In this document: one piece after another, positions 1 through 9,909 of the stretch
Numbering within the stretch: position 1 is the first letter of the stretch
Layout of the letters: each line of letters starts with the position of its first letter
Assembly: GCF_900683735.1 (NCBI RefSeq)
Contig: NZ_LR215979.1
Coordinates: 744,001-808,000, forward strand
Length of the DNA stretch: 64,000 nucleotides
Reading direction: 5' to 3'
DNA from: Fusobacterium ulcerans ATCC 49185
Lineage (GTDB): Bacteria; Fusobacteriota; Fusobacteriia; Fusobacteriales; Fusobacteriaceae
The notes under the pieces: generated by a model
Told to the model about the DNA's origin: nothing
Database searches by the model: none
Seen by the model: only the letters and a program-made list of their open reading frames with translations
Made by a program: the position numbers and the translations under genes

Positions 1-2
1 AG

Positions 3-101
3 TTTACTTATGCATTAAGAGATAAAGCTGGAGATATTCCATACACACTGGAAATAAAAGAATATGTTTTGCCAGTTCAAAGAAGTGATAACAATGTATA
101 A
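3..101 (+). CDS. Phage tail/baseplate protein, C-terminal fragment (XkdP/LysM-type candidate)
   Basis: An open frame enters from the left edge and ends at the TAA at 99-101, giving 32 residues of a protein cut by the window. The end contains a GDIPYTLEIKEY stretch, which resembles the strand-rich segment of XkdP-like tail proteins that sit just before XkdQ in PBSX-type phages. The stop overlaps the ATG of the next gene by 8 bases, which supports it being a real upstream gene of the same operon. The family name rests mainly on position and is tentative. Confidence 0.5.
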   Translation, partial: FTYALRDKAGDIPYTLEIKEYVLPVQRSDNNV

Positions 102-1071
102 AATTATTGTAAAAGATAAGGATATAACAGCTTACACAGCAAATCTAAATTGGCGTGATAGTGTTGATACATTAGGAGTAGAGTTAAATTTTGATGTGGC
201 AGTAAATAGACATGATGAAAACTTTTCTTTTCTCTGGGATATCACACTTGGGGATAATGTACAGCTCATAAATAGTAAAGGTGAAAGTTTGCTTCAAGCT
301 ATTATTGTATCAGAAAATTTAAATGAAAAAACAACAAACTTTGTGGCATATGATATGGCTTGGTATTTAAATAAATCTACAGTTATTAGACAATTTAAAA
401 AAATGATAGGAAATGAATGTGTAAAATCTTTATGTGAAGAAATTGGAATTAAAGTTGAAGTTTCTGGGTTAGATACTAAGATAGATAAAATATATAAAGA
501 TAAAGCTGTTTCAGAAGTGATTTATGACATTATTAATCAATGCTCACAACACAATTCCAAGAAATTTTTTATTGAAATGGATAAAGGGATATTGAAAGTA
601 GGGTCTTTTAAAAAAATAAAGGTAACAGGGCAGTATGAGCTACATAAAAATCACTTTGTTAATGTGGCTGATTTTGTAGGTAATGTTTCTTTAAATAAAT
701 CTATTATTGACATGAAAAACTCTGTCTTGGTAATAACAGCAGATAAAGAAGCTGTGAGAACAGTAGGAAAGGAACAGGATCAAGAAAGTATTAAAAAGTA
801 TGGAATGTTGCAAGAGGTTGTAATACTTGATGAAAAGGAATATAAAAAAGCAAAACTTGTGGCAAAGAATGAGTTAAAAAAATTAAATAGAATTACTGAA
901 AATTTTTCTATCACTATCTTAGGGGATGATAAAGTGAAAAGTGGCAGAGTAATTGATTTAGAAATACCTTTTTTCAATTTAAAAGGGGAATATTTAATAA
1001 AGGAAAGCAATCATATAGTACAAAATGGAATTCACAAATCAGAACTAAAGTTGGAGGTGTATCAGGAATGA
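94..1071 (+). CDS. Phage baseplate hub protein, XkdQ / late control gene D family
   Basis: A 325-residue protein whose N-terminus (MYKIIVKDKDIT, then NLNWRDSVDTLG) is typical of XkdQ-like hub proteins, which form the central baseplate hub below the tail tube of contractile phages. The frame extends upstream to an ATG at 64, but the ATG at 94 gives the family-like N-terminus, so I chose 94. The gene overlaps the upstream stop by 8 bases and the next start by 4 (ATGA), consistent with translational coupling in the late operon. Family assignment is by similarity recalled from the PBSX set and by gene order. Confidence 0.75.
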   Translation: MYKIIVKDKDITAYTANLNWRDSVDTLGVELNFDVAVNRHDENFSFLWDITLGDNVQLINSKGESLLQAIIVSENLNEKTTNFVAYDMAWYLNKSTVIRQFKKMIGNECVKSLCEEIGIKVEVSGLDTKIDKIYKDKAVSEVIYDIINQCSQHNSKKFFIEMDKGILKVGSFKKIKVTGQYELHKNHFVNVADFVGNVSLNKSIIDMKNSVLVITADKEAVRTVGKEQDQESIKKYGMLQEVVILDEKEYKKAKLVAKNELKKLNRITENFSITILGDDKVKSGRVIDLEIPFFNLKGEYLIKESNHIVQNGIHKSELKLEVYQE

Positions 1072-1604
1072 GTGATAATCAAAAAGCTTGGGATATAGCT
1101 ATGGCAGAGAAATTTAAAGAAAGAGATAACCCAAAGCCTATTGGAGCAGTCTTAGGAAAAATTTTAAGGCCACTTCCTGATATATCAATTGAATTATTAG
1201 GCGGTTATGGGATTTTAGATGCAGATAAGATTTATCTTTCTAATGCTATTACAAATAGATTAGCTATAGAATGCACAATAAAGGACTTTGAAAGTATGGG
1301 TAATAGTATTGAAAACATGAAAAGTTCCTTTATGGAGACTGGAACATGGACCCCATTCAAGCCTATTACTTTACCTTTACCATCAAATGATAAGACAGAA
1401 AGTGTTGATATAAAAATCCCAAAACAAACAAATGAAAAAGAAAATAAAACTAAAGGAAAATTTATACTGCAGACTGTATTTAATTTAATTCCTGGAATGT
1501 ATGTTTTAGTAATACCTAACTATGAGGAAGATAAATTTTTTGTAGTTGATGTATTTAATTATGCTCCGGAGGTGAGCCTTGAATGGGAATATTACCAGAA
1601 ATAA
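1068..1604 (+). CDS. Phage baseplate protein, XkdR-like (DUF2577)
   Basis: A 178-residue protein with the segment KILRPLPDISIELLGGYGIL followed by a LSNAI stretch, matching the pattern of DUF2577/XkdR proteins that lie between XkdQ and XkdS. It begins at the ATGA overlap with the hub gene and has a GGAGGTG ribosome site in front. Its last 22 bases overlap the next gene. The function is structural, in baseplate assembly; the precise role of the family is not well established. It is somewhat longer than the usual XkdR, with a low-complexity Lys/Asn/Glu linker near residues 120-135. Confidence 0.65.
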   Translation: MSDNQKAWDIAMAEKFKERDNPKPIGAVLGKILRPLPDISIELLGGYGILDADKIYLSNAITNRLAIECTIKDFESMGNSIENMKSSFMETGTWTPFKPITLPLPSNDKTESVDIKIPKQTNEKENKTKGKFILQTVFNLIPGMYVLVIPNYEEDKFFVVDVFNYAPEVSLEWEYYQK

Positions 1605-2035
1605 ATTTTATTGATTATTCAAAACAAGTAGCAGAGATTCAAAAAGAAACAAATGGAAAAACCTTTCTAATCGATTTCAAAAAAGGGAAGATGTTAAGAA
1701 AAAATGGAAAACTAATTAAAACAGATGATGAAAGAGCTGTAAGGATGTGGCTAGAAAAAGTACTTTTGACAGAGAAATATAAATGGAATATTTACAAAGG
1801 TAATGGAATTAATCAATATGGAATGACTTATAAAGCCAATTTACAAGGACAAAGATTTCCAACTCCTGTTTTATATAGTGAATTCATAAGAGAGCTGAAA
1901 GAAACAATATTAAAAAATAAACAAATTATTGAAATAAAAAACATAGACATACAACTAATAAAACATACATTGGAAACTAAATTTACAGTAGTGTTAAAGG
2001 ACTTCCAAGAATTTGAGTGGGAGGGTTATTTATGA
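1583..2035 (+). CDS. Phage baseplate wedge protein, XkdS-like (DUF2634, gp25-like)
   Basis: A 150-residue protein with the DUF2634 pattern: a short strand with DFKKGK, then TDDERAVRMWLEKVLLTEKY and a YGMTY segment. XkdS proteins are the gp25-like wedge component linking hub and BaseplateJ protein. The start at 1583 has a good GGAGGTGA site inside the upstream gene, and the gene ends in an ATGA overlap with the BaseplateJ gene. Position between XkdR and XkdT is exactly that of PBSX-like phages. Confidence 0.75.
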   Translation: MGILPEINFIDYSKQVAEIQKETNGKTFLIDFKKGKMLRKNGKLIKTDDERAVRMWLEKVLLTEKYKWNIYKGNGINQYGMTYKANLQGQRFPTPVLYSEFIRELKETILKNKQIIEIKNIDIQLIKHTLETKFTVVLKDFQEFEWEGYL

Positions 2036-3090
2036 TAATAAAAAAAGAACAAAAAGAGATATTAGATGGGATGCTCAGGAATGTAAATGAGGAATATGAT
2101 AGAACAGAAGGGGGACTGTTTTATGATAATTTAGCACCAGTAAGCATAGAATTAGAAGAACTCTATCAAAAATTAGATTATATATTTCTCAATTCTTTTG
2201 CAGAAACTGCTGAAGGGGAATATTTGGATAATATAGCTAAAGAGGTAGGAGTTTTCAGAAGACAACCTACAAAGAGTAAAGGTTTTGTAACAATAAAAGG
2301 AACAATAGGAACTGTGATTACAATAGGAACAAAAGTTGCTTCAGATACATATATTTACTTAACTACAGAAGAAAAAGAAATTCCAGAACAGGGAGAGATA
2401 TTAGTACCTATTGAAAGTGAAAATGCTGGATCAGAATATAACATACCAGCAGAAACTATAGTAAATTTTCCAGTTACAATTCCAGGGTTACAAAGAGTTA
2501 CAAATAAGCTAGCAACTACAGATGGGTATGATGGAGAGAAAGACAATGAACTGCGAGAAAGGTATTATTTTAAAGTCAGGGAGCCAGTTACATCAGGAAA
2601 TATTTACCATTATAAAAAATGGTGCTTAGAAGTAGAAGGAGTTGGAGGAGTTAAGGTTTTTCCACTTTGGGCAGGACCAGGAACAGTGAAAGTGGTTATA
2701 GTAAATGTAGATATCCAAGCAGCAGATGAGGAGTTGCAGCAAAGAGTAAGAGACTATTTAGAGGAAGTACGACCAATTGGGGCAACTGTAACAGTTAAAA
2801 GTGCTATAAATAAAGGAATAGCAATTACAGGAATTGTGAAAATTTCTAAAAATGTTGATTTTGAAGAAGTAAAAAAAGATTTTGAGGAAGAGGTTAGAGA
2901 ATACTTTAAAAAAATTGGGTTTAATCAAAATTATGTTAGTTATGCACAGGTAGGAAATACACTTTTAAATGTACAGGGAGTAGTAGATTATAGTGATTTG
3001 CAGTTAAATGATGGGGTATTAAATATCGATTTACAAGAAGAAGAGATACCAGAGCTTGCATCAATAACTTTACAGAAGGAAGTGATATAG
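2032..3090 (+). CDS. Phage BaseplateJ family protein (XkdT-like)
   Basis: A 352-residue protein with the BaseplateJ layout: an N-terminal helical part (YDRTEGGLFYDNLAP, then EGEYLDNIAKEVGVFR), a central strand-rich domain (GTKVASDTYIYLTTEE; SAGSEYNIPA-like SENAGSEYNIPAET), then the REPVTSGN and VKVFPLW segments. It forms the baseplate wedge periphery of the contractile tail. A GTG at 2017 is possible, but GGGAGGG at 2019-2025 is correctly spaced for the ATG at 2032, which also gives the usual ATGA overlap with the preceding gene. Confidence 0.88.
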   Translation: MIIKKEQKEILDGMLRNVNEEYDRTEGGLFYDNLAPVSIELEELYQKLDYIFLNSFAETAEGEYLDNIAKEVGVFRRQPTKSKGFVTIKGTIGTVITIGTKVASDTYIYLTTEEKEIPEQGEILVPIESENAGSEYNIPAETIVNFPVTIPGLQRVTNKLATTDGYDGEKDNELRERYYFKVREPVTSGNIYHYKKWCLEVEGVGGVKVFPLWAGPGTVKVVIVNVDIQAADEELQQRVRDYLEEVRPIGATVTVKSAINKGIAITGIVKISKNVDFEEVKKDFEEEVREYFKKIGFNQNYVSYAQVGNTLLNVQGVVDYSDLQLNDGVLNIDLQEEEIPELASITLQKEVI

Positions 3091-3642
3091 GTGGAGGCCA
3101 AAAGACTTATGCAGCATATGCCAAAATATTATAGAACTATAGCAGAAATAGTAGTATTGCAAAAAACTATTCAAAGTGAACTAGAAGTTATTGATTTTAC
3201 AAGTGAAGATGTACTAAAACAATTCTTTATTTATACTGCTACTTGGTCATTACCAATTTGGGAAAGGATTTTCGGATTACCTGTTGGGGATGAAACTACG
3301 AATATACAAGAACGAAGAGAAAATTTAATTTCTAAACTTAGAAGTTATGGAACTACAACAAAAGAAATGATTGTAAGAGTTGGAAATGCTTTTACAAATG
3401 GGGAAGTTCAAGTTGTGGAACATAATGAAAAATATTTATTTGAAATTATTTTTACAGGTATAATAGGGATTCCTCCTAATATGGATGATTTCAAAGAAAC
3501 AATAGAGATTATCAAGCCAGCACATCTTACATACACTGTTGTATTTAGGTATAGAACTTGGGGAGAATTATCTCCTTATAGATGGGGAGAATTAGAACCA
3601 TTTACTTGGGATGAGCTTTATCAAAGAGCAGAAATAGCATAA
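3091..3642 (+). CDS. Phage tail protein, XkdU/YmfQ-like (DUF2313)
   Basis: A 183-residue protein with the LMQHMPKYYRTIAEI start and a SLPIWERIFGLP segment, followed by NIQERRENLISKLRSYGTTTKEM, all features of YmfQ/XkdU baseplate proteins that join tail fibres to the wedge. The C-terminus is a Trp-rich repeat (TWGELSPYRWGELEPFTWDEL), probably the fibre-contact end. Two starts are possible: GTG at 3091 (GAAGG site 7 bases upstream) and ATG at 3109 (GGAGG site 11 bases upstream). I keep the GTG. Confidence 0.8.
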   Translation: MEAKRLMQHMPKYYRTIAEIVVLQKTIQSELEVIDFTSEDVLKQFFIYTATWSLPIWERIFGLPVGDETTNIQERRENLISKLRSYGTTTKEMIVRVGNAFTNGEVQVVEHNEKYLFEIIFTGIIGIPPNMDDFKETIEIIKPAHLTYTVVFRYRTWGELSPYRWGELEPFTWDELYQRAEIA

Positions 3643-3652
3643 AGGGGGGACA

Positions 3653-4597
3653 ATGATAACATCAAAAAATTTAAAAATGCAATTGCCAGAACCAAATGAT
3701 TATGTAAAAGTTAAAGAGCATATAACAGATAACTTGCTCTTAGTAGATGATGAAATATTTAAAACTGCATCCAGTACACAGTTTGGAAGAATTAAAGTAG
3801 GAACAAATTTAAAAATAGATGAAAATGGATTTTTACATGGAAATCCTGCTGTAGACATAAGTGGAAAAATAGATAAGTATCAAATGAGATATGATATAAG
3901 AGACTATGATGAACTAACAGAAGATGGATTTTATATACTAACAGGAAGTGTAAGCAGCTCTCCAGCAGCAAATGCACCATATGGAGATTCGGCATTAGTG
4001 AAGGTGTGGACTCATTCAAATTATGTATATCAAAGTGCAGTATCTTATTATAGTGTTGGAGAACAATATACAAGATGTTTTCAAAAAGGAGTAAAAAATA
4101 TTAAATGGGAAAGAATAATTAATACTAAAAATTATTCTTTTATGTGCCCTTATAGTATTGGGGATATTATGTTTACTACAAGTAGTCAAAATCCTGCAGT
4201 AAAATGGATAGGGACAACTTGGGAAAAAATAGAAGGAAGGTTTTTATTAGGATCTAGTAGTTCTTATGTTGTAGGGACTACTGCTGGAAGCACAACATCC
4301 GTTCTTACTGTAGCTAACCTTCCATCACATACACATAGTGCGACACAATCGGCTCATGCTCATACACAACCAGCTCATAGCCATGTTGTAACAAGTTATG
4401 AGGGAGGAAATAGAGCTGGAGTTTCTAACTATAATGCTGGATATAATGCAATAGGAACACAAGCAACTGGAGGAGCAGGAGGAGATAATACAGGAAGTGC
4501 TCAACCTGCAATAACAGTAGGATATACAGGTTCAGGAACAGCTTTTAATAATATGCCACCATATCTAGTAGTTAATATTTGGAGAAGAACAAGTTAA
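3653..4597 (+). CDS. Phage tail fibre protein with pyocin-knob-like and His-rich collar domains
   Basis: A 314-residue receptor-binding fibre. Residues ~1-70 look like the baseplate-anchoring part. Residues ~75-160 resemble the pyocin-knob domain (YDIRDYDELTEDGFYIL, then VKNIKWERI). Residues ~165-314 are a phage-collar/short-fibre tip: GDIMFTTSSQNPAVKWIGTTW, GRFLLGS, LPSHTHS, AHAHTQPAHSH and a final NNMPPYLVVNIWRRTS. The HxH motifs are the type that coordinate metal along the trimer axis in short tail fibres. A GGGGG site stands 5 bases before the ATG. It determines host range, so its tip is expected to vary among related prophages. Confidence 0.85.
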   Translation: MITSKNLKMQLPEPNDYVKVKEHITDNLLLVDDEIFKTASSTQFGRIKVGTNLKIDENGFLHGNPAVDISGKIDKYQMRYDIRDYDELTEDGFYILTGSVSSSPAANAPYGDSALVKVWTHSNYVYQSAVSYYSVGEQYTRCFQKGVKNIKWERIINTKNYSFMCPYSIGDIMFTTSSQNPAVKWIGTTWEKIEGRFLLGSSSSYVVGTTAGSTTSVLTVANLPSHTHSATQSAHAHTQPAHSHVVTSYEGGNRAGVSNYNAGYNAIGTQATGGAGGDNTGSAQPAITVGYTGSGTAFNNMPPYLVVNIWRRTS

Positions 4598-4616
4598 GAT
4601 TAGAGGAGTGATTGAA

Positions 4617-5240
4617 GTGAATAAAAAATATATTTATTTAAGTAAAGAAGAAGCAAAAAAAGGAATAGCACTGGTTTATGAAGTATCAGATAAGGCTTTA
4701 AGTGAAAATGAAACGAAAATTAAATATAGGGATAGATGTTGCTTGTACATTGGGGAAGATTTACCACACTATATAACTTATGTAGAAGAAGGTAACACAG
4801 TAAGAGAGGCAACAGAAGAAGAAAAACTAGAAAGAGGAGATAGAGATTTATATGTAGGAGAAGTATATATAAATGGAAGAATAGAACAGATAGAAATACC
4901 AGAAGGAATGATAAAGCCAATATGGGATAATGAAAAAGGGGAATGGGAAGAAATAGCAACTTTAAAAGAGATAGAAAAATATTTTATGGATAAATTGCAA
5001 GAATATATGGACAATAAGGCAAAAACATATGGATTTGATAGTGTATTTAATGCTGCAAGTTATATAGATTCTAAAGTAGAAAGATTTAAAAATGACAGTA
5101 GAACATTGCTAGATTGGAGAGATAGCACATGGGATAAAGCATATACAATACTTGAAGATGTATTAACAGAGAAAAGAGGAATACCTACACTAGAAGAATT
5201 ATTAAAAGAACTGCCACAGATAGCAGATGGAAGGAGATAA
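4617..5240 (+). CDS. Probable tail-fibre assembly/chaperone-like phage protein (DUF4376-like C-terminus)
   Basis: A 207-residue acidic, highly charged protein directly after the fibre gene, where phages usually place a fibre assembly protein. The C-terminal ~75 residues (YGFDSVFNAASYIDS, then LLDWRDSTWDKAYTIL) have the pattern seen at the end of many fibre-assembly and DUF4376-type proteins. The N-terminal part I do not recognise. The AGAGGAG site at 4602-4608 sits 8 bases before the GTG at 4617 and directly abuts the alternative GTG at 4608, so 4617 is the likelier start. Function is inferred from position and C-terminal pattern. Confidence 0.55.
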   Translation: MNKKYIYLSKEEAKKGIALVYEVSDKALSENETKIKYRDRCCLYIGEDLPHYITYVEEGNTVREATEEEKLERGDRDLYVGEVYINGRIEQIEIPEGMIKPIWDNEKGEWEEIATLKEIEKYFMDKLQEYMDNKAKTYGFDSVFNAASYIDSKVERFKNDSRTLLDWRDSTWDKAYTILEDVLTEKRGIPTLEELLKELPQIADGRR

Positions 5241-5241
5241 A

Positions 5242-5679
5242 ATGAAAATGAGTGAAGGAGGAATTAAATTTTTAATCCAGGAAGAAGGAGAAAGATTAAA
5301 AGCATATAAGTGTGCAGCAGGAGTATGGACAATAGGGGTAGGACACACAGGAGCAGATGTAAAAGAAGGAATGGTAATAACAAAAGAAAAATCAAGAGAG
5401 CTTTTAAAAGCTGATTTAAGCCGTTTTGAAAAAGCAGTCAACACTTATATCAAAGTTCCACTTGAACAACACCAATTTGACGCTTTAATAAGTCTGGCTT
5501 TTAATATAGGAGTTGGAAACTTTTCTAAAAGTACTCTAGTAAAAAAGATAAATGCAAATGCTACTATTGAGGAAATAGAATTTCAATTTAAGCAGTGGAG
5601 GCTAGCAGGAGGAAAACCTATATTACTACCTAGAAGAAAGAGAGAGGCTAGACTATACAAAGGAGGAAGATATGAATAA
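5242..5679 (+). CDS. Phage endolysin, GH24 lysozyme (Glu-Cys-Thr type)
   Basis: A 145-residue muramidase that cuts the peptidoglycan glycan chain during host lysis. The active site follows the E-8-D/C-5-T spacing of family 24: Glu15, Cys24 and Thr30, with the usual GVWTIGVGHT stretch around the threonine. Cys replaces the Asp of T4 lysozyme, as in the phage 21 and P1 group. A second core motif (DALISLAFNIGVGNF) and a C-terminal LLPRRKREARLY helix are present. AAGGAGAT 5 bases before 5242 fixes the start, not the ATG at 5227. There is no signal or anchor segment, so export must depend on the holins encoded next. Confidence 0.92.
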   Translation: MKMSEGGIKFLIQEEGERLKAYKCAAGVWTIGVGHTGADVKEGMVITKEKSRELLKADLSRFEKAVNTYIKVPLEQHQFDALISLAFNIGVGNFSKSTLVKKINANATIEEIEFQFKQWRLAGGKPILLPRRKREARLYKGGRYE

Positions 5680-6160
5680 AGAAACATTATTTTTAATAAT
5701 AACAATTATCCTAGTTATGATGGGGACATATTACTTATACAAGTATAAAAAAGAAACTTTATGGGTAATAGCCTGTTATGTGGTAACAAGAGCAGAGGAA
5801 GGATTTGCATCAGGTCAGGGGAAACAAAAACTTGAATATGCTATTATAGAATTTAAAAAGAGAATACCAGTATATATATCCTGGATTATATCTGAAAAAT
5901 TTATCATTTCTTTAATAGAAAAAGTTCTGAAAGCACTACAAGAGGAGTTTAAAAAGTCAAAGGATAAACAACTCACAATAGTAAATGAAATCCTTAAAAC
6001 AGCAACCACAGGAGCTACAAAAGATATATTAAAAGTAGCAAGAGAAATGCAAAAAGATATTAATAGTAAAGGATATGTAGAAGGATATATTGAAGGAAGA
6101 ACAGATTTTAGAGGAAACTCTAATTTAGTTGGAGGATTAAAAGCAGGAATCAAATTGTAA
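5672..6160 (+). CDS. Phage holin-like protein, LL-H family candidate
   Basis: A 162-residue protein with one N-terminal membrane segment (residues ~5-22) followed by a soluble, charged domain. The segment RAEEGFASGQGKQKLEYAI resembles the conserved region of LL-H type holins (paired helix after a single membrane span). It overlaps the endolysin by 8 bases, as expected for a lysis cassette. The Gly-rich tail (YVEGYIEGRTDFRGNSN) is unusual for the family. It could instead be a tail or membrane accessory protein; the assignment rests on topology, one motif and position. Confidence 0.6.
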   Translation: MNKETLFLIITIILVMMGTYYLYKYKKETLWVIACYVVTRAEEGFASGQGKQKLEYAIIEFKKRIPVYISWIISEKFIISLIEKVLKALQEEFKKSKDKQLTIVNEILKTATTGATKDILKVAREMQKDINSKGYVEGYIEGRTDFRGNSNLVGGLKAGIKL

Positions 6161-6173
6161 AGGAGAGTTGAGA

Positions 6174-6566
6174 ATGATAAATTTAATAAAAACATGGGGG
6201 TTATATCTAGGTAGTGGTTGTTTAAGTTTGACTATCTACTTAATGGGAGGTTATGACATATTGATAAAAACTCTTTTAGTAATGATGATTATAGATTTTA
6301 TAACTGGAATTATGAAGGGGTATAAAAATAAAAATATAAACTCCAATGTATCATATAGAGGCATAAAGAAAAAGGTAACAGTATTACTTATTGTGGTAGG
6401 TGCTTCTCAAATGGATTTGATACTTCATGATGTAGGTATTAGGTCGTTGGTATTGATGTTCTATGTAGCAACTGAATTTTTATCAATTCTTGAGAATGCA
6501 GCAATATTAGGAATACCCATTCCTACAAAATTAAAAGTAGCATTAGAGCAATATAGAAATAGATGA
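6174..6566 (+). CDS. Phage holin, toxin-secretion/lysis family (TcdE-like, Holin_4)
   Basis: A 130-residue protein with three to four hydrophobic segments and the family core: a first span, then LLVMMIIDFITGIMKGYKN, a basic SYRGIKKKV turn, and a last helix with ATEFLSILENAAILGIPIP. Members make membrane lesions that release endolysin, and some relatives export clostridial toxins. The AGGAGAG site at 6161-6167 is 6 bases before the ATG at 6174, so the upstream TTG at 6168 is rejected. It is the last gene of the late operon, followed by a terminator. Confidence 0.9.
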   Translation: MINLIKTWGLYLGSGCLSLTIYLMGGYDILIKTLLVMMIIDFITGIMKGYKNKNINSNVSYRGIKKKVTVLLIVVGASQMDLILHDVGIRSLVLMFYVATEFLSILENAAILGIPIPTKLKVALEQYRNR

Positions 6567-6597
6567 AGAAATAAAAAGTAAATATAGATAATAAAAG

Positions 6598-6618
6598 TGG
6601 GAAAAGTCCCATTTTTTT
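6598..6618 (+). terminator. Intrinsic terminator of the prophage late operon
   Basis: TGGGA and TCCCA pair across an AAAG loop, followed by seven T residues. It lies 32 bases after the holin stop and closes the tail-lysis operon before the kinase gene. Confidence 0.85.
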
Positions 6619-6644
6619 ATTTACTTGACTTTAAAAGCTAAATA

Positions 6645-6650
6645 TATAAT
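6645..6650 (+). promoter_or_regulatory. -10 element of the prophage kinase gene
   Basis: A TATAAT lies 36 bases before the kinase start. The best -35-like hexamers are TTGACT at 6625-6630 (only 14 bases away) and TTTACT at 6620-6625 (19 bases), so the -35 is uncertain. It lies just after the late-operon terminator, so the kinase can be expressed from the silent prophage. Confidence 0.45.
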
Positions 6651-6685
6651 AATTAAATAAAGAACAAATATGGGAGAGATAAAAT

Positions 6686-8191
6686 ATGAAACAAATATTA
6701 AGGAATTATTTAAAAGAAAAAAATAAGATTGAAACTTTATTCAGTGAAATTTCTGATTTAAGAATAATAGGAGAGGGAGCTAATGGGTTAGTATATTCTG
6801 GAAAAATTAATAACCAAGTTCCTGTTGCTATAAAGTTTTTAGTAACAAATGATAAAAAAAAATTGGATCGATTTAAAAGTGAATATATTAATATCAGTAT
6901 GGTAAAAGATGAATTAATAAATATAGTAAATAATCTTCACTATGAAACAATTGATATAGAAGAGGGATCAAAAAAATATACTTATAATTATATCTTGATG
7001 AAAAGGTATTGTAAATCATTAAAAATGAAAAGGAAAGAACTTTCAAAAATAGAGTTTAAAGATTTGAAAAAACTATTTTCTGATTTATCCAAATCACTAT
7101 CTTCTTTAGAGGAATTTGAAATAATTCATAGAGATTTAAAACCTGAAAATATTCTTATAGATGAAAATGAGAATTATAAAATAGCAGATTTTGGAATTGC
7201 ACATTTTGCTGATGAAAATACTTTTCCTATGGTTGGGTTAACAAAAGATGGAGAAAGATTAGCAAATTTTGAATTTTATGCTCCTGAACAAGTAAAACCG
7301 CCTTTTCATACCTCTTTAGCAACTGATATATATTCTTTTGGGTTAATATTATATTGGTTTGTTTTTGGAGAAATAACTAAAGGAACTGGAAGAAAAAGAT
7401 TAACAGAAGTATTTCCAGAAGGGGAAGCAGAATATTTTGATATAATTATTGATAAATGTTTAAGAGATGATCCAAAAGAGAGATATCAAACAATAGAAGA
7501 GTTGAATGATCATCTGGATGAAATTAGATCTTTAGATAGAGAAAAAGATCCTTTTGAAGAAATGACGAAATTTAATATGGTTTTGAGATCCGTTGTTCCC
7601 GAATTCTACATAGATGGACCATATTGTACAGAATCAGAAAAGGAAATTGAAACTATTATAGAAAAACTTGAAGAAATAAATAATAAAACTTTATATTTTA
7701 ATACAGGAATTTTAAATAATAGAATTGAATGGCTGAAAAAAATAGACACAGGAAATTTTTTATTAAATATGGGGGAAATAAAAATAATTAAAATATGGGG
7801 GAAACTAGGTGACAGTTTATATGATGATATCTTGATTATAGAAACAGACAAGATAGATCCATATATAATTGATGGAGAGCCACATACTCATGTTGCTAAA
7901 ATTAATGATGATGAGATAGTTCCTTTGCACAAAATAGAGGGAGGATATACAAGATATAATGGAAGTGTTGTTGATAATAGAGATTTAAAAATAGAAGAAA
8001 GAATTACTACCAATATGGCAAATCATAAGTACTATTTTATTGGGACTTTTTTCAATTCAATTACTATGCCTGAGAATGATAAGTATTTGGAAACTATTCA
8101 GAATCATAATCAATTAACTCCTGAAATAATTAAAGATTTTTTTATGAAGATAAGAAGAAATAAACGTTTACAAGTGAGTGAAAAATTATAA
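6686..8191 (+). CDS. Hanks-type Ser/Thr protein kinase with unknown C-terminal domain (prophage accessory gene)
   Basis: A 501-residue protein. Residues ~25-275 are a complete eukaryotic-like kinase: glycine loop GEGANG (29-34), VAIK lysine Lys50, HRD at 148-150 with DLKPEN, DFG at 168-170, APE at 199-201, and DIYSFG. All catalytic residues are present, so it should be active. Residues ~285-501 match no domain I can name and contain no membrane span, so this is not a PASTA-type cell-wall kinase. It sits between the lysis operon and the prophage end, the usual place for lysogen-expressed cargo. A role in superinfection exclusion or defence is plausible but only inferred. It has its own ribosome site (GGGAGAG) and -10 box. 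Confidence 0.88.
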   Translation: MKQILRNYLKEKNKIETLFSEISDLRIIGEGANGLVYSGKINNQVPVAIKFLVTNDKKKLDRFKSEYINISMVKDELINIVNNLHYETIDIEEGSKKYTYNYILMKRYCKSLKMKRKELSKIEFKDLKKLFSDLSKSLSSLEEFEIIHRDLKPENILIDENENYKIADFGIAHFADENTFPMVGLTKDGERLANFEFYAPEQVKPPFHTSLATDIYSFGLILYWFVFGEITKGTGRKRLTEVFPEGEAEYFDIIIDKCLRDDPKERYQTIEELNDHLDEIRSLDREKDPFEEMTKFNMVLRSVVPEFYIDGPYCTESEKEIETIIEKLEEINNKTLYFNTGILNNRIEWLKKIDTGNFLLNMGEIKIIKIWGKLGDSLYDDILIIETDKIDPYIIDGEPHTHVAKINDDEIVPLHKIEGGYTRYNGSVVDNRDLKIEERITTNMANHKYYFIGTFFNSITMPENDKYLETIQNHNQLTPEIIKDFFMKIRRNKRLQVSEKL

Positions 8192-8214
8192 GAAAATAAA
8201 CTATTGATTTAAAT

Positions 8215-8250
8215 TTAATTGAATGATATAAGTTAATTGAATGATATAAG
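8215..8250 (+). repeat. Two exact, abutting 18-bp direct repeats, with a third degenerate copy at 8318-8335
   Basis: The unit TTAATTGAATGATATAAG occurs at 8215-8232 and again at 8233-8250 with no gap. A third copy at 8318-8335 matches at 15 of 18 positions. They lie just after the kinase stop. They could be protein-binding iterons (for example integrase arm sites) or residue of a duplication. Confidence 0.85.
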
Positions 8251-8260
8251 CATGATAAAT

Positions 8261-8296
8261 AAAAAACCTCTAAGGACTAATCTAAGAGGTTTTTTT
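8261..8296. terminator. Bidirectional terminator after the kinase gene
   Basis: The arms at 8261-8271 and 8285-8295 (A6-CCTCT and AGAGG-T6) form a perfect 11-bp stem. The outer A and T runs give a T tract on each strand. A second weaker hairpin follows at 8336-8362 (9 pairs, one G-T). Confidence 0.75.
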
Positions 8297-8427
8297 ATTT
8301 TTAATTATTAGAAATTACCAATTGAATAATATAAGAGACTTCATAATATTTTCATGAGGTCTTTTATATTCTAACAGTTTTATAATCAAATTAATATTTT
8401 ATATTTTTTATCAATATACTGAAAAAA

Positions 8428-8489
8428 TGGTACACTAATATTCTAAAGAAAAAATATATGTACCAGGTGGTTGGTCACGCGTTGGTCAC
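8428..8489. repeat. Candidate prophage attachment-arm region: inverted repeat plus TTGGTCAC direct repeats
   Basis: TGGTACA at 8428-8434 is inverted at 8459-8465 (TGTACCA). Directly after it, TTGGTCAC occurs at 8471-8478 and 8482-8489, an 11-bp period, about one helical turn. The block is non-coding and lies at the expected end of the prophage. Helically phased direct repeats are typical of recombinase arm sites, but without the other prophage end this is only a candidate. Confidence 0.4.
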
Positions 8490-8530
8490 AAATAACAAAA
8501 ATGAAATAATATATTTCTCTCAAACATACA

Positions 8531-8676: not shown

Positions 8677-8705
8677 TTGTCATAAAATAAATAAAAAGGT
8701 ATAAT
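8677..8705 (+). promoter_or_regulatory. Sigma-70 promoter of the racemase-like gene
   Basis: TTGTCA (8677-8682), a 17-base spacer and TATAAT (8700-8705) make a near-consensus promoter 36 bases before the start codon. It gives the gene its own transcript, separate from the prophage. Confidence 0.85.
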
Positions 8706-8740: not shown

Positions 8741-9532
8741 ATGAATAAAGAGTCGTCTATAGGAATTTTTGATTCTGGAATAGGTGGGTTGACTATTTTA
8801 AAAAAAATAAGAGAATTACTTCCAAGGGAAAATATAATCTATTATGGAGATTGGAAAAACAATCCATATAGTGAAAAAAGCAAGGAAGATATACAGAACC
8901 TTAGTGCAAAAATAATGGATTTTCTTATTAGAAATAATTGTAAAGCTGTTGTTATAGGATGCAGCATATTTTCAGCTGCTTCTTTAGATTTTCTTAAATC
9001 TCAATATAATATTCCAATAATTGGAATGATAGAGGGAGGGGTAAAATCTGCTATACTTGAAAGTAAGCAGAAAAAAATAGCTGTTATGGGATCAGCCTTT
9101 ACAATAAAATCTAATGTATATGAAAAAAATATAAAAGAAATAGACCCAGATATAGTGGTGTATCAAATTTCATGTAAAGCATTGTGCACAATGTTGGAAA
9201 AAGGCTGGGAAAATTATCCTGATAGAATTGAAGTACTTGAAAGTTATTTATGCCAGATACCTGATACAGCAGATACATTAATTCTAGGAGGAACACATTA
9301 TCCCTTTATTTTAAATGATATAAAAAAATTCTTTAGTAAAAAAATTGTTGATTCTTCAGTTGAAAGTGCAATAGAATTATTTAGAGTTTTGGGACAGGAA
9401 GATTTATTGAGAGAGGGATACAAAAAGGGAAGAATAGAATTTTATATTAATGGAGATAAAGAAGTTTTCAAAGATGTAGCTGAACAATTATTTGAAAAAG
9501 AAGAAATAACAAACATGTTCTCTTTATATTAA
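8741..9532 (+). CDS. Glutamate racemase-like protein lacking the second catalytic cysteine
   Basis: A 263-residue Asp/Glu racemase superfamily member. The FDSGIGGLTIL motif near residue 10 and the YYGDWKNNPYSEKS loop align with MurI, and Cys74 stands where the first catalytic cysteine sits (GCS in place of ACNT). At the second site, normally GCTHYP, the protein has Gly184 in GGTHYP, encoded by GGA, so two base changes separate it from a Cys codon. The substrate loop also departs from the usual DTARxPYG. A two-base racemase mechanism therefore looks impossible. It may be a paralogue with another substrate, an isomerase or a regulator. It has its own promoter and terminator and lies just before a lysine riboswitch. 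Confidence 0.75.
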   Translation: MNKESSIGIFDSGIGGLTILKKIRELLPRENIIYYGDWKNNPYSEKSKEDIQNLSAKIMDFLIRNNCKAVVIGCSIFSAASLDFLKSQYNIPIIGMIEGGVKSAILESKQKKIAVMGSAFTIKSNVYEKNIKEIDPDIVVYQISCKALCTMLEKGWENYPDRIEVLESYLCQIPDTADTLILGGTHYPFILNDIKKFFSKKIVDSSVESAIELFRVLGQEDLLREGYKKGRIEFYINGDKEVFKDVAEQLFEKEEITNMFSLY

Positions 9533-9558
9533 AATTAAATATTAATAAAAAATTGGAA

Positions 9559-9607
9559 TAAAGATAGGTCAATGAAAAATTTCATGTTGGGCTATCTTTA
9601 TTTTTTT
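9559..9607 (+). terminator. Intrinsic terminator after the racemase-like gene
   Basis: AAAGATAG (9560-9567) pairs with CTATCTTT (9592-9599). An inner stem, CAATGAAA with TCATGTTG, lengthens it, and a T run follows to 9607. Confidence 0.85.
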
Positions 9608-9673: not shown

Positions 9674-9681
9674 ATTGATTT

Positions 9682-9844
9682 AGATAGAGGTGCAGAAAAC
9701 AAAAGTATAACTATTTAGTCTGGCAGATGTTTTGAGATAGTTAGAAAGGGAATTTTGCCGAAATAGAAGAGAAGCCATGCTCTTTTGTTGGGAGTATAGA
9801 TAATATCTATATTACTGTCATTGATTATCAATGGAGTGCTATCT
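9682..9844 (+). ncRNA. Lysine riboswitch (L box)
   Basis: The conserved lysine aptamer elements occur in the right order: stem P1 (AGATAG at 9682-9687 with CTATCT at 9839-9844), AGAGGTGC (9686-9693), the AGTA loop, GAAAGGG (9744-9750), GCCGAAAT (9757-9764), a TTGGGAGTATA segment, ACTGTCA (9814-9820) and TGGAGTGCTATC (9832-9843). The class binds free L-lysine and usually turns off lysine synthesis or import genes. A terminator hairpin 66 bases downstream points to control by transcription attenuation. The genes it leads begin at 10190 and include lysA. Confidence 0.93.
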
Positions 9845-9909
9845 GTGGGAACGATAATTTTGATGATATTATTTTATTTATAAATAATATTATTTTTATG
9901 ATTGCATTT

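Follow-up and report, generated by a model that had tools for sequence, protein, structure and literature searches.

The window, the whole 64,000-nucleotide stretch of DNA analysed here, contains a MurI-like gene with an intact frame (Table 1). Its 263-residue product matched the Pfam family Asp_Glu_race, scored 193.9 bits against the TIGR00067 glutamate racemase model (cut-off 146.65) and retrieved glutamate racemases from the PDB by sequence. An AlphaFold2 model, built with six sequences (mean pLDDT 89.8), most closely resembled MurI (2dwu_B; Z 37.6, rmsd 1.5, 259 aligned), and MurI proteins were likewise the best structural matches in a Foldseek search. The structural comparison with MurI proposed in an earlier, sequence-only reading of this DNA thus placed the protein within the glutamate racemase fold. 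The same reading had given the gene a promoter and a terminator of its own, and candidates for both were predicted. The sigma-70-like promoter, identified by consensus match only, was kept in four of four close genomes (the window counted) and was absent from genome G011. The hairpin and T-run behind the gene are plausibly its terminator.

Downstream of the gene lay a lysine riboswitch (RF00168, 119.4 bits), followed in order by two membrane proteins, an LD-carboxypeptidase-like protein, a ThrE-like exporter pair, lysA, an amidohydrolase, a YfcC-like transporter and dapF. Three other genomes (L051, L052 and L053) had the riboswitch in the same position; it was not found in G011 or in the corresponding loci searched in g14, a second genus of the same family. 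It is unlikely to control the MurI-like gene, since it lies beyond the gene's own hairpin. In genome G009, lysA was split into two frames (L052, 13147-14450). On the other side of the MurI-like gene, a protein kinase resembling the PADLOC mad6 and PD-T4-6 kinases marked the edge of a prophage-like region; a near-match search of window positions 1-8500 against phages gave no match.

Table 1. Features at the locus, in window coordinates. Variants are the 11 orthologues with Gly184; counts for two-Cys homologues refer to the 65 compared.
Feature	Position	Strand	Detail
Protein kinase	6686-8191		Edge of prophage-like region
Sigma-70-like promoter	8677-8705	+	TTGTCA-17-TATAAT; 11/12 consensus
MurI-like paralogue (P0001)	8741-9532	+	ATG start; 263 aa; second catalytic Cys replaced by Gly
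Trp38, substrate loop	8852-8854	+	Trp/Phe in 11/11 variants; Ser/Asn/Thr in 64/65 two-Cys homologues
Cys74, first catalytic Cys, D-glutamate face	8960-8962	+	Motif GCSIFSA; kept in 11/11 variants; role as in PMC8142540
Ser75-Ile76	8963-8968	+	Asn75 to Ser and Thr76 to Ile/Leu in 11/11 variants; Asn-Thr in 65/65 two-Cys homologues
Ser118	9092-9094	+	Ser/Asn in 11/11 variants; Thr in 65/65 two-Cys homologues
Gly184, second catalytic Cys position	9290-9292	+	Motif LGGTHYP; Gly in 11/11 variants; Cys in 65/65 two-Cys homologues
Thr185-His186, neighbours of lost Cys	9293-9298	+	Kept in 11/11 variants and 65/65 two-Cys homologues
Intrinsic-terminator-like hairpin and T-run	9556-9603	+	-17.6 kcal/mol
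Lysine riboswitch	9677-9849		RF00168

The sequence-only reading had noted that the first catalytic cysteine was kept (Cys74, in GCS) and the second replaced by glycine (Gly184, in GGTHYP); both observations held in all 11 orthologues. Residues were read in 79 of the 138 MurI matches from Fusobacteriota and in L080 and L139, and the 11 variants were compared with 65 two-Cys homologues, with L124, L111, L113, L080 and L139 set aside as odd. Asp11, Ser12, Pro42, Tyr43, Cys74, Glu153, Thr185 and His186 were unchanged in all 76 sequences. Asn75, Thr76, Thr118 and Cys184 were the same in every two-Cys homologue and replaced in every variant. The variants therefore had the first cysteine of MurI, together with Asp11 and Ser12, and Glu153, Thr185 and His186 of the L-glutamate half-site, and lacked the second cysteine (184/185), the Asn75-Thr76 pair and Thr118. 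We take Asn75, Thr76 and Thr118 to be α-carboxylate binders. The substrate loop had been described as unlike DTARxPYG. This was so for the window protein, which reads GDWKNNPYS, but the departure is partly lineage-wide, the two-Cys MurI loops of Fusobacteriaceae reading DSGNAPYG and similar. Specific to the variants were Trp/Phe38 and Asn/Thr41 in the loop, and Ser75, Ile/Leu76 and Ser/Asn118 outside it. According to a review, Cys74 of glutamate racemase deprotonates D-glutamate and Cys185 deprotonates L-glutamate (PMC8142540; published sources are cited here from excerpts). For Helicobacter pylori MurI, D7, S8, C70 and T72 are listed for D-glutamate and E150, C181, T182 and H183 for L-glutamate (PMC6927343); mapped by eye on the variants, the D-side lacked only the Thr and the L-side only the Cys.

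The gene had been called a paralogue, a claim that would fall if it were the only murI copy. It is not: two more copies lay elsewhere in genome G000 (3.84 Mb, one contig), at 72249-73001 and 2360451-2361206, with 49% and 46% identity to the window protein, respectively. Both read CNTATA and GCTHYP, and the second directly followed a gene that reads as gltS-like. Of 98 Fusobacteriota genomes, 93 had a MurI match to the window protein. A DNA pattern encoding GGTH[YF]P in context occurred in 11 of the 98, with no control hits, and the 11 genes bearing it were the same 11 that best matched the window protein (53–100% identity with the window included, 53–96% for the ten others). They came from five of 12 genomes of the window's genus and six of eight genomes of g14, and all 11 genomes also held at least one two-Cys MurI. 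In a wider genome collection, described as covering 84,980 species and possibly omitting near relatives of the window, the protein query found no match. A scan of this collection for the GGTH[YF]P DNA motif, which used one degenerate nucleotide context that other losses of the second cysteine would escape, gave 38 stretches; all were read, and only four lay within a racemase frame. Three of these (L078, L090 and L098) belonged to the variant clade. The fourth was a murI gene of a Friedmanniella MAG (L080, 56-850), with GGTHYP among otherwise near-usual residues, including Asn75 and Thr118, and with neighbours that read as those of a normal actinobacterial murI; either an error or one independent event may account for it. 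The 66 plasmid records of relatives were all below 60% identity, and the one relative on viral contigs had both cysteines. The Gly184 variant is rare in the collections scanned.

Phylogenetic analysis placed the variants together. They formed a group with FastTree (81 sequences, support 0.983), with L124 beside them (0.898), and with IQ-TREE (79 sequences) their bootstrap value was 98, rising to 100 once L124 was included. When columns around the active site were masked, leaving 188 of 254, the two values were 65 and 99. Shared active-site changes therefore do not explain the kinship with L124, whereas under masking the variants are only weakly monophyletic relative to it. L124, a single sequence from a third genus (G013), had Ser at both Cys positions and Tyr at 186. 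Its gene was intact (L140, 8663-9451, minus strand), adjoined a gltS-like gene and still scored 160.6 bits with TIGR00067, above the cut-off. Elsewhere in the tree, Ser75-Val76 had arisen independently in L111 (G043) and L113 (G041), with both cysteines kept. A MurI paralogue with Ser75-Val76, both cysteines and the loop NKNFHYE lay at L141 (8145-8930), downstream of a gltS-like gene.

Within-genus pairs gave dN/dS values (NG86) of 0.03–0.13 for variants of the window's genus (10 pairs) and 0.04–0.10 for those of g14 (15 pairs), compared with 0.04–0.23 for two-Cys copies (16 pairs); values from the several pairs with dS above 1 are rough. The variants are under strong purifying selection, with constraint no weaker than that on the two-Cys copies. 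The low dN/dS and the orthologues in two genera bear out the earlier view of an intact, non-decaying gene, and sequencing error or decay is refuted, Gly184 being present in 11 of 11 genomes. An ordinary D-glutamate racemase, or an artefact, is accordingly a highly improbable account. The TIGR00067 score speaks for a racemase, but the same model passes Cys-less L124, so its score is no test of catalysis, and the second cysteine is reported to be essential in MurI (PMC5038272). As judged from sequence, the Gly184 variant is real, conserved and not an ordinary glutamate racemase. With Cys184 replaced by Gly and Asn75, Thr76 and Thr118 changed, the usual two-base glutamate racemisation appears very unlikely, and the paralogue would not be expected to make D-glutamate for the cell wall.

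We tentatively favour, with somewhat less than even confidence, the reading that this MurI paralogue, once a two-base racemase, has become an enzyme with a single base, Cys74, which acts on the D-glutamate face. The enzyme would bind a D-configured, glutamate-like acid, and the Cys74 thiolate would remove, or its thiol deliver, the α proton on the D-glutamate face only. With no acid on the opposite face, the carbanion would leave by β-elimination rather than be re-protonated to the mirror image; alternatively, it could be formed by loss of the carboxylate. The half-site around Cys74 is frozen in all 11 variants while position 184 is Gly in all 11, a pattern that would suit one-base chemistry, as would the strong purifying selection on the variants. 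That L124 lost Cys74, Cys184 and His186 together gives meaning to their partial survival in the variants, which keep Cys74 and His186. Against it, Thr76 is lost, whose counterpart in H. pylori belongs to the residues listed for D-glutamate (PMC6927343). One-sided deprotonation had earlier been linked to a stereospecific isomerase, a decarboxylase or a ligand sensor. The first of these is awkward, since a MurI-fold isomerase must also have a group that donates a proton from the other side; any of one-base elimination, exchange, decarboxylation or ligand binding would fit better.

The main evidence against a one-base enzyme is L124 itself, which has no catalytic Cys and indicates that the lineage can dispense with Cys chemistry. 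A close second, quite possible if somewhat doubtful, is that the variants are non-catalytic pseudo-racemases, binding glutamate, D-glutamate or a muropeptide-like ligand as a sensor, or tuning a two-Cys MurI partner in the manner of a prozyme, with Cys74 kept for structure or binding. The intact frame of L124, its firm grouping with the variants even under masking, the loss of four otherwise invariant active-site residues and the two-Cys MurI in every variant genome all agree with such a role. The invariance of Cys74, Asp11, Ser12, Thr185, His186 and Glu153, however, seems to exceed what binding would need, and no partner or regulatory domain was visible in the variants. One-base chemistry is favoured over a binding role because of the precedents described below, namely the Cys mutants of glutamate racemase, the dehydratase, arylmalonate decarboxylase (AMDase) and OpaE.

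A third alternative retains two bases: the protein would racemise or epimerise another substrate, the L-face proton coming from His186 or from an ordered water occupying the room that Gly184 leaves. The invariance of His186, Thr185 and Glu153, the partners of Cys184, is in keeping with this, and unequal Cys/Thr base pairs are known in EcL-DER and MMP0739 (PMC8142540). But no Cys/His pair occurred among the family members described in the excerpts covered, and Asn75, Thr76 and Thr118 are also gone; we regard this alternative as unlikely.

The gene neighbourhood hints at a diaminopimelate (DAP) or muropeptide setting, and the proposed one-base enzyme might metabolise D-amino-acid or muropeptide products, with DAP/lysine genes close by. 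The variant was near lysA in eight of 11 genomes: within about 5 kb in four of five genomes of the window's genus and directly divergent from it in four of six of g14. In three Cetobacterium-type genomes (L142, L143 and L144), a MurI paralogue with both cysteines stood in divergent orientation to a second lysA; in the one such locus with frames listed, and with names read from sequence, a YfcC-like transporter followed the paralogue, and lysA was followed by genes for an amidohydrolase and a D-aminoacylase-like protein. These associations may count in favour of one-base chemistry. Against this, G011 and G061 had no lysA association (the G057 contig ends nearby), and no neighbour common to all variant genomes pointed to a natural substrate. 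A conserved operon was rejected, as neighbours differ between genomes, and co-occurrence with lysA or dapF was uninformative, with matches in 81 and 95 of the 98 genomes, respectively.

Literature searches gave no match for 'glutamate racemase' together with the phrase GGTHYP, for MurI Asn75/Thr76, or for glutamate racemase with gltS and Fusobacteri. Among the matches listed, the pseudoenzyme literature held no glutamate-racemase pseudoenzyme by title; by titles and abstract starts, that on MurI Cys mutants held no natural MurI lacking the second cysteine, and that on glutamate racemase and Fusobacterium no such copy. In the variant, nature offers a clean instance of a two-base racemase that has lost a base yet stayed under selection, so that the routes from racemase to lyase, decarboxylase or sensor can be put to the test. 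Because the curated TIGR00067 model accepts proteins without one or both catalytic cysteines, annotation in the MurI group cannot be trusted unless the cysteines are checked, and databases would mislabel the variant. MurI is also a target for antibacterials, and work on inhibitors has to reckon with a look-alike copy.

With MurI/RacE (TIGR00067), the window protein shares the full-length fold, DSGxGG, the PY of the loop, Cys74, Glu153 and THYP; the variants differ in Gly184, Ser75, Ile/Leu76, Ser/Asn118 and Trp/Phe38. L124, the sister of the variant clade, differs from it in having lost both cysteines and His186 and in adjoining a gltS-like gene. Racemase relatives turned lyase are known from the proline-racemase family, which has a different fold from MurI. 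There, Thr replaces one Cys, whereas in the variants the replacement is Gly; the Cys-to-Thr change is reported to produce a dehydratase (PMC8142540, PMC9309405). EcL-DER and MMP0739, Asp/Glu racemases, have likewise naturally lost one of two cysteines, but to Thr, and Gly in the window protein cannot carry a proton. Glutamate racemase mutants left with a single Cys eliminate HCl from one stereoisomer of 3-chloroglutamate, the remaining Cys deciding which, although nearly all eliminations known for such enzymes are on unnatural substrates, which counts against a one-base enzyme here (PMC8142540). OpaE is nearly one-directional despite both cysteines (PMC12661438). AMDase, a natural single-Cys decarboxylase of the same superfamily, also has Gly opposite Cys (PMC4996985), but as Gly74 and Cys188, the mirror of Cys74 and Gly184 in the window protein. 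Its motifs LMGTSLSF and ILLSCGGL, around positions 72-79 and 184-191, were absent, the window protein having GCSIFSA and LILGGTHYP, and membership of AMDase was rejected on residue layout; AMDase structures were not among the best 50 structural matches listed, which says nothing either way. Engineered AMDase G74C/C188G, with the same Cys/Gly layout as the window protein, yields the (S)-product (PMC12576825). It is possible, though rather doubtful, that the variants are a naturally occurring MurI-fold enzyme with a single base and this mirror AMDase layout. In Fusobacteriaceae, such an enzyme would act on a D-amino acid, perhaps one of the D-glutamate type or one derived from muropeptides, by a stereospecific elimination or decarboxylation not described before, and a sister lineage would later have lost all catalytic Cys.
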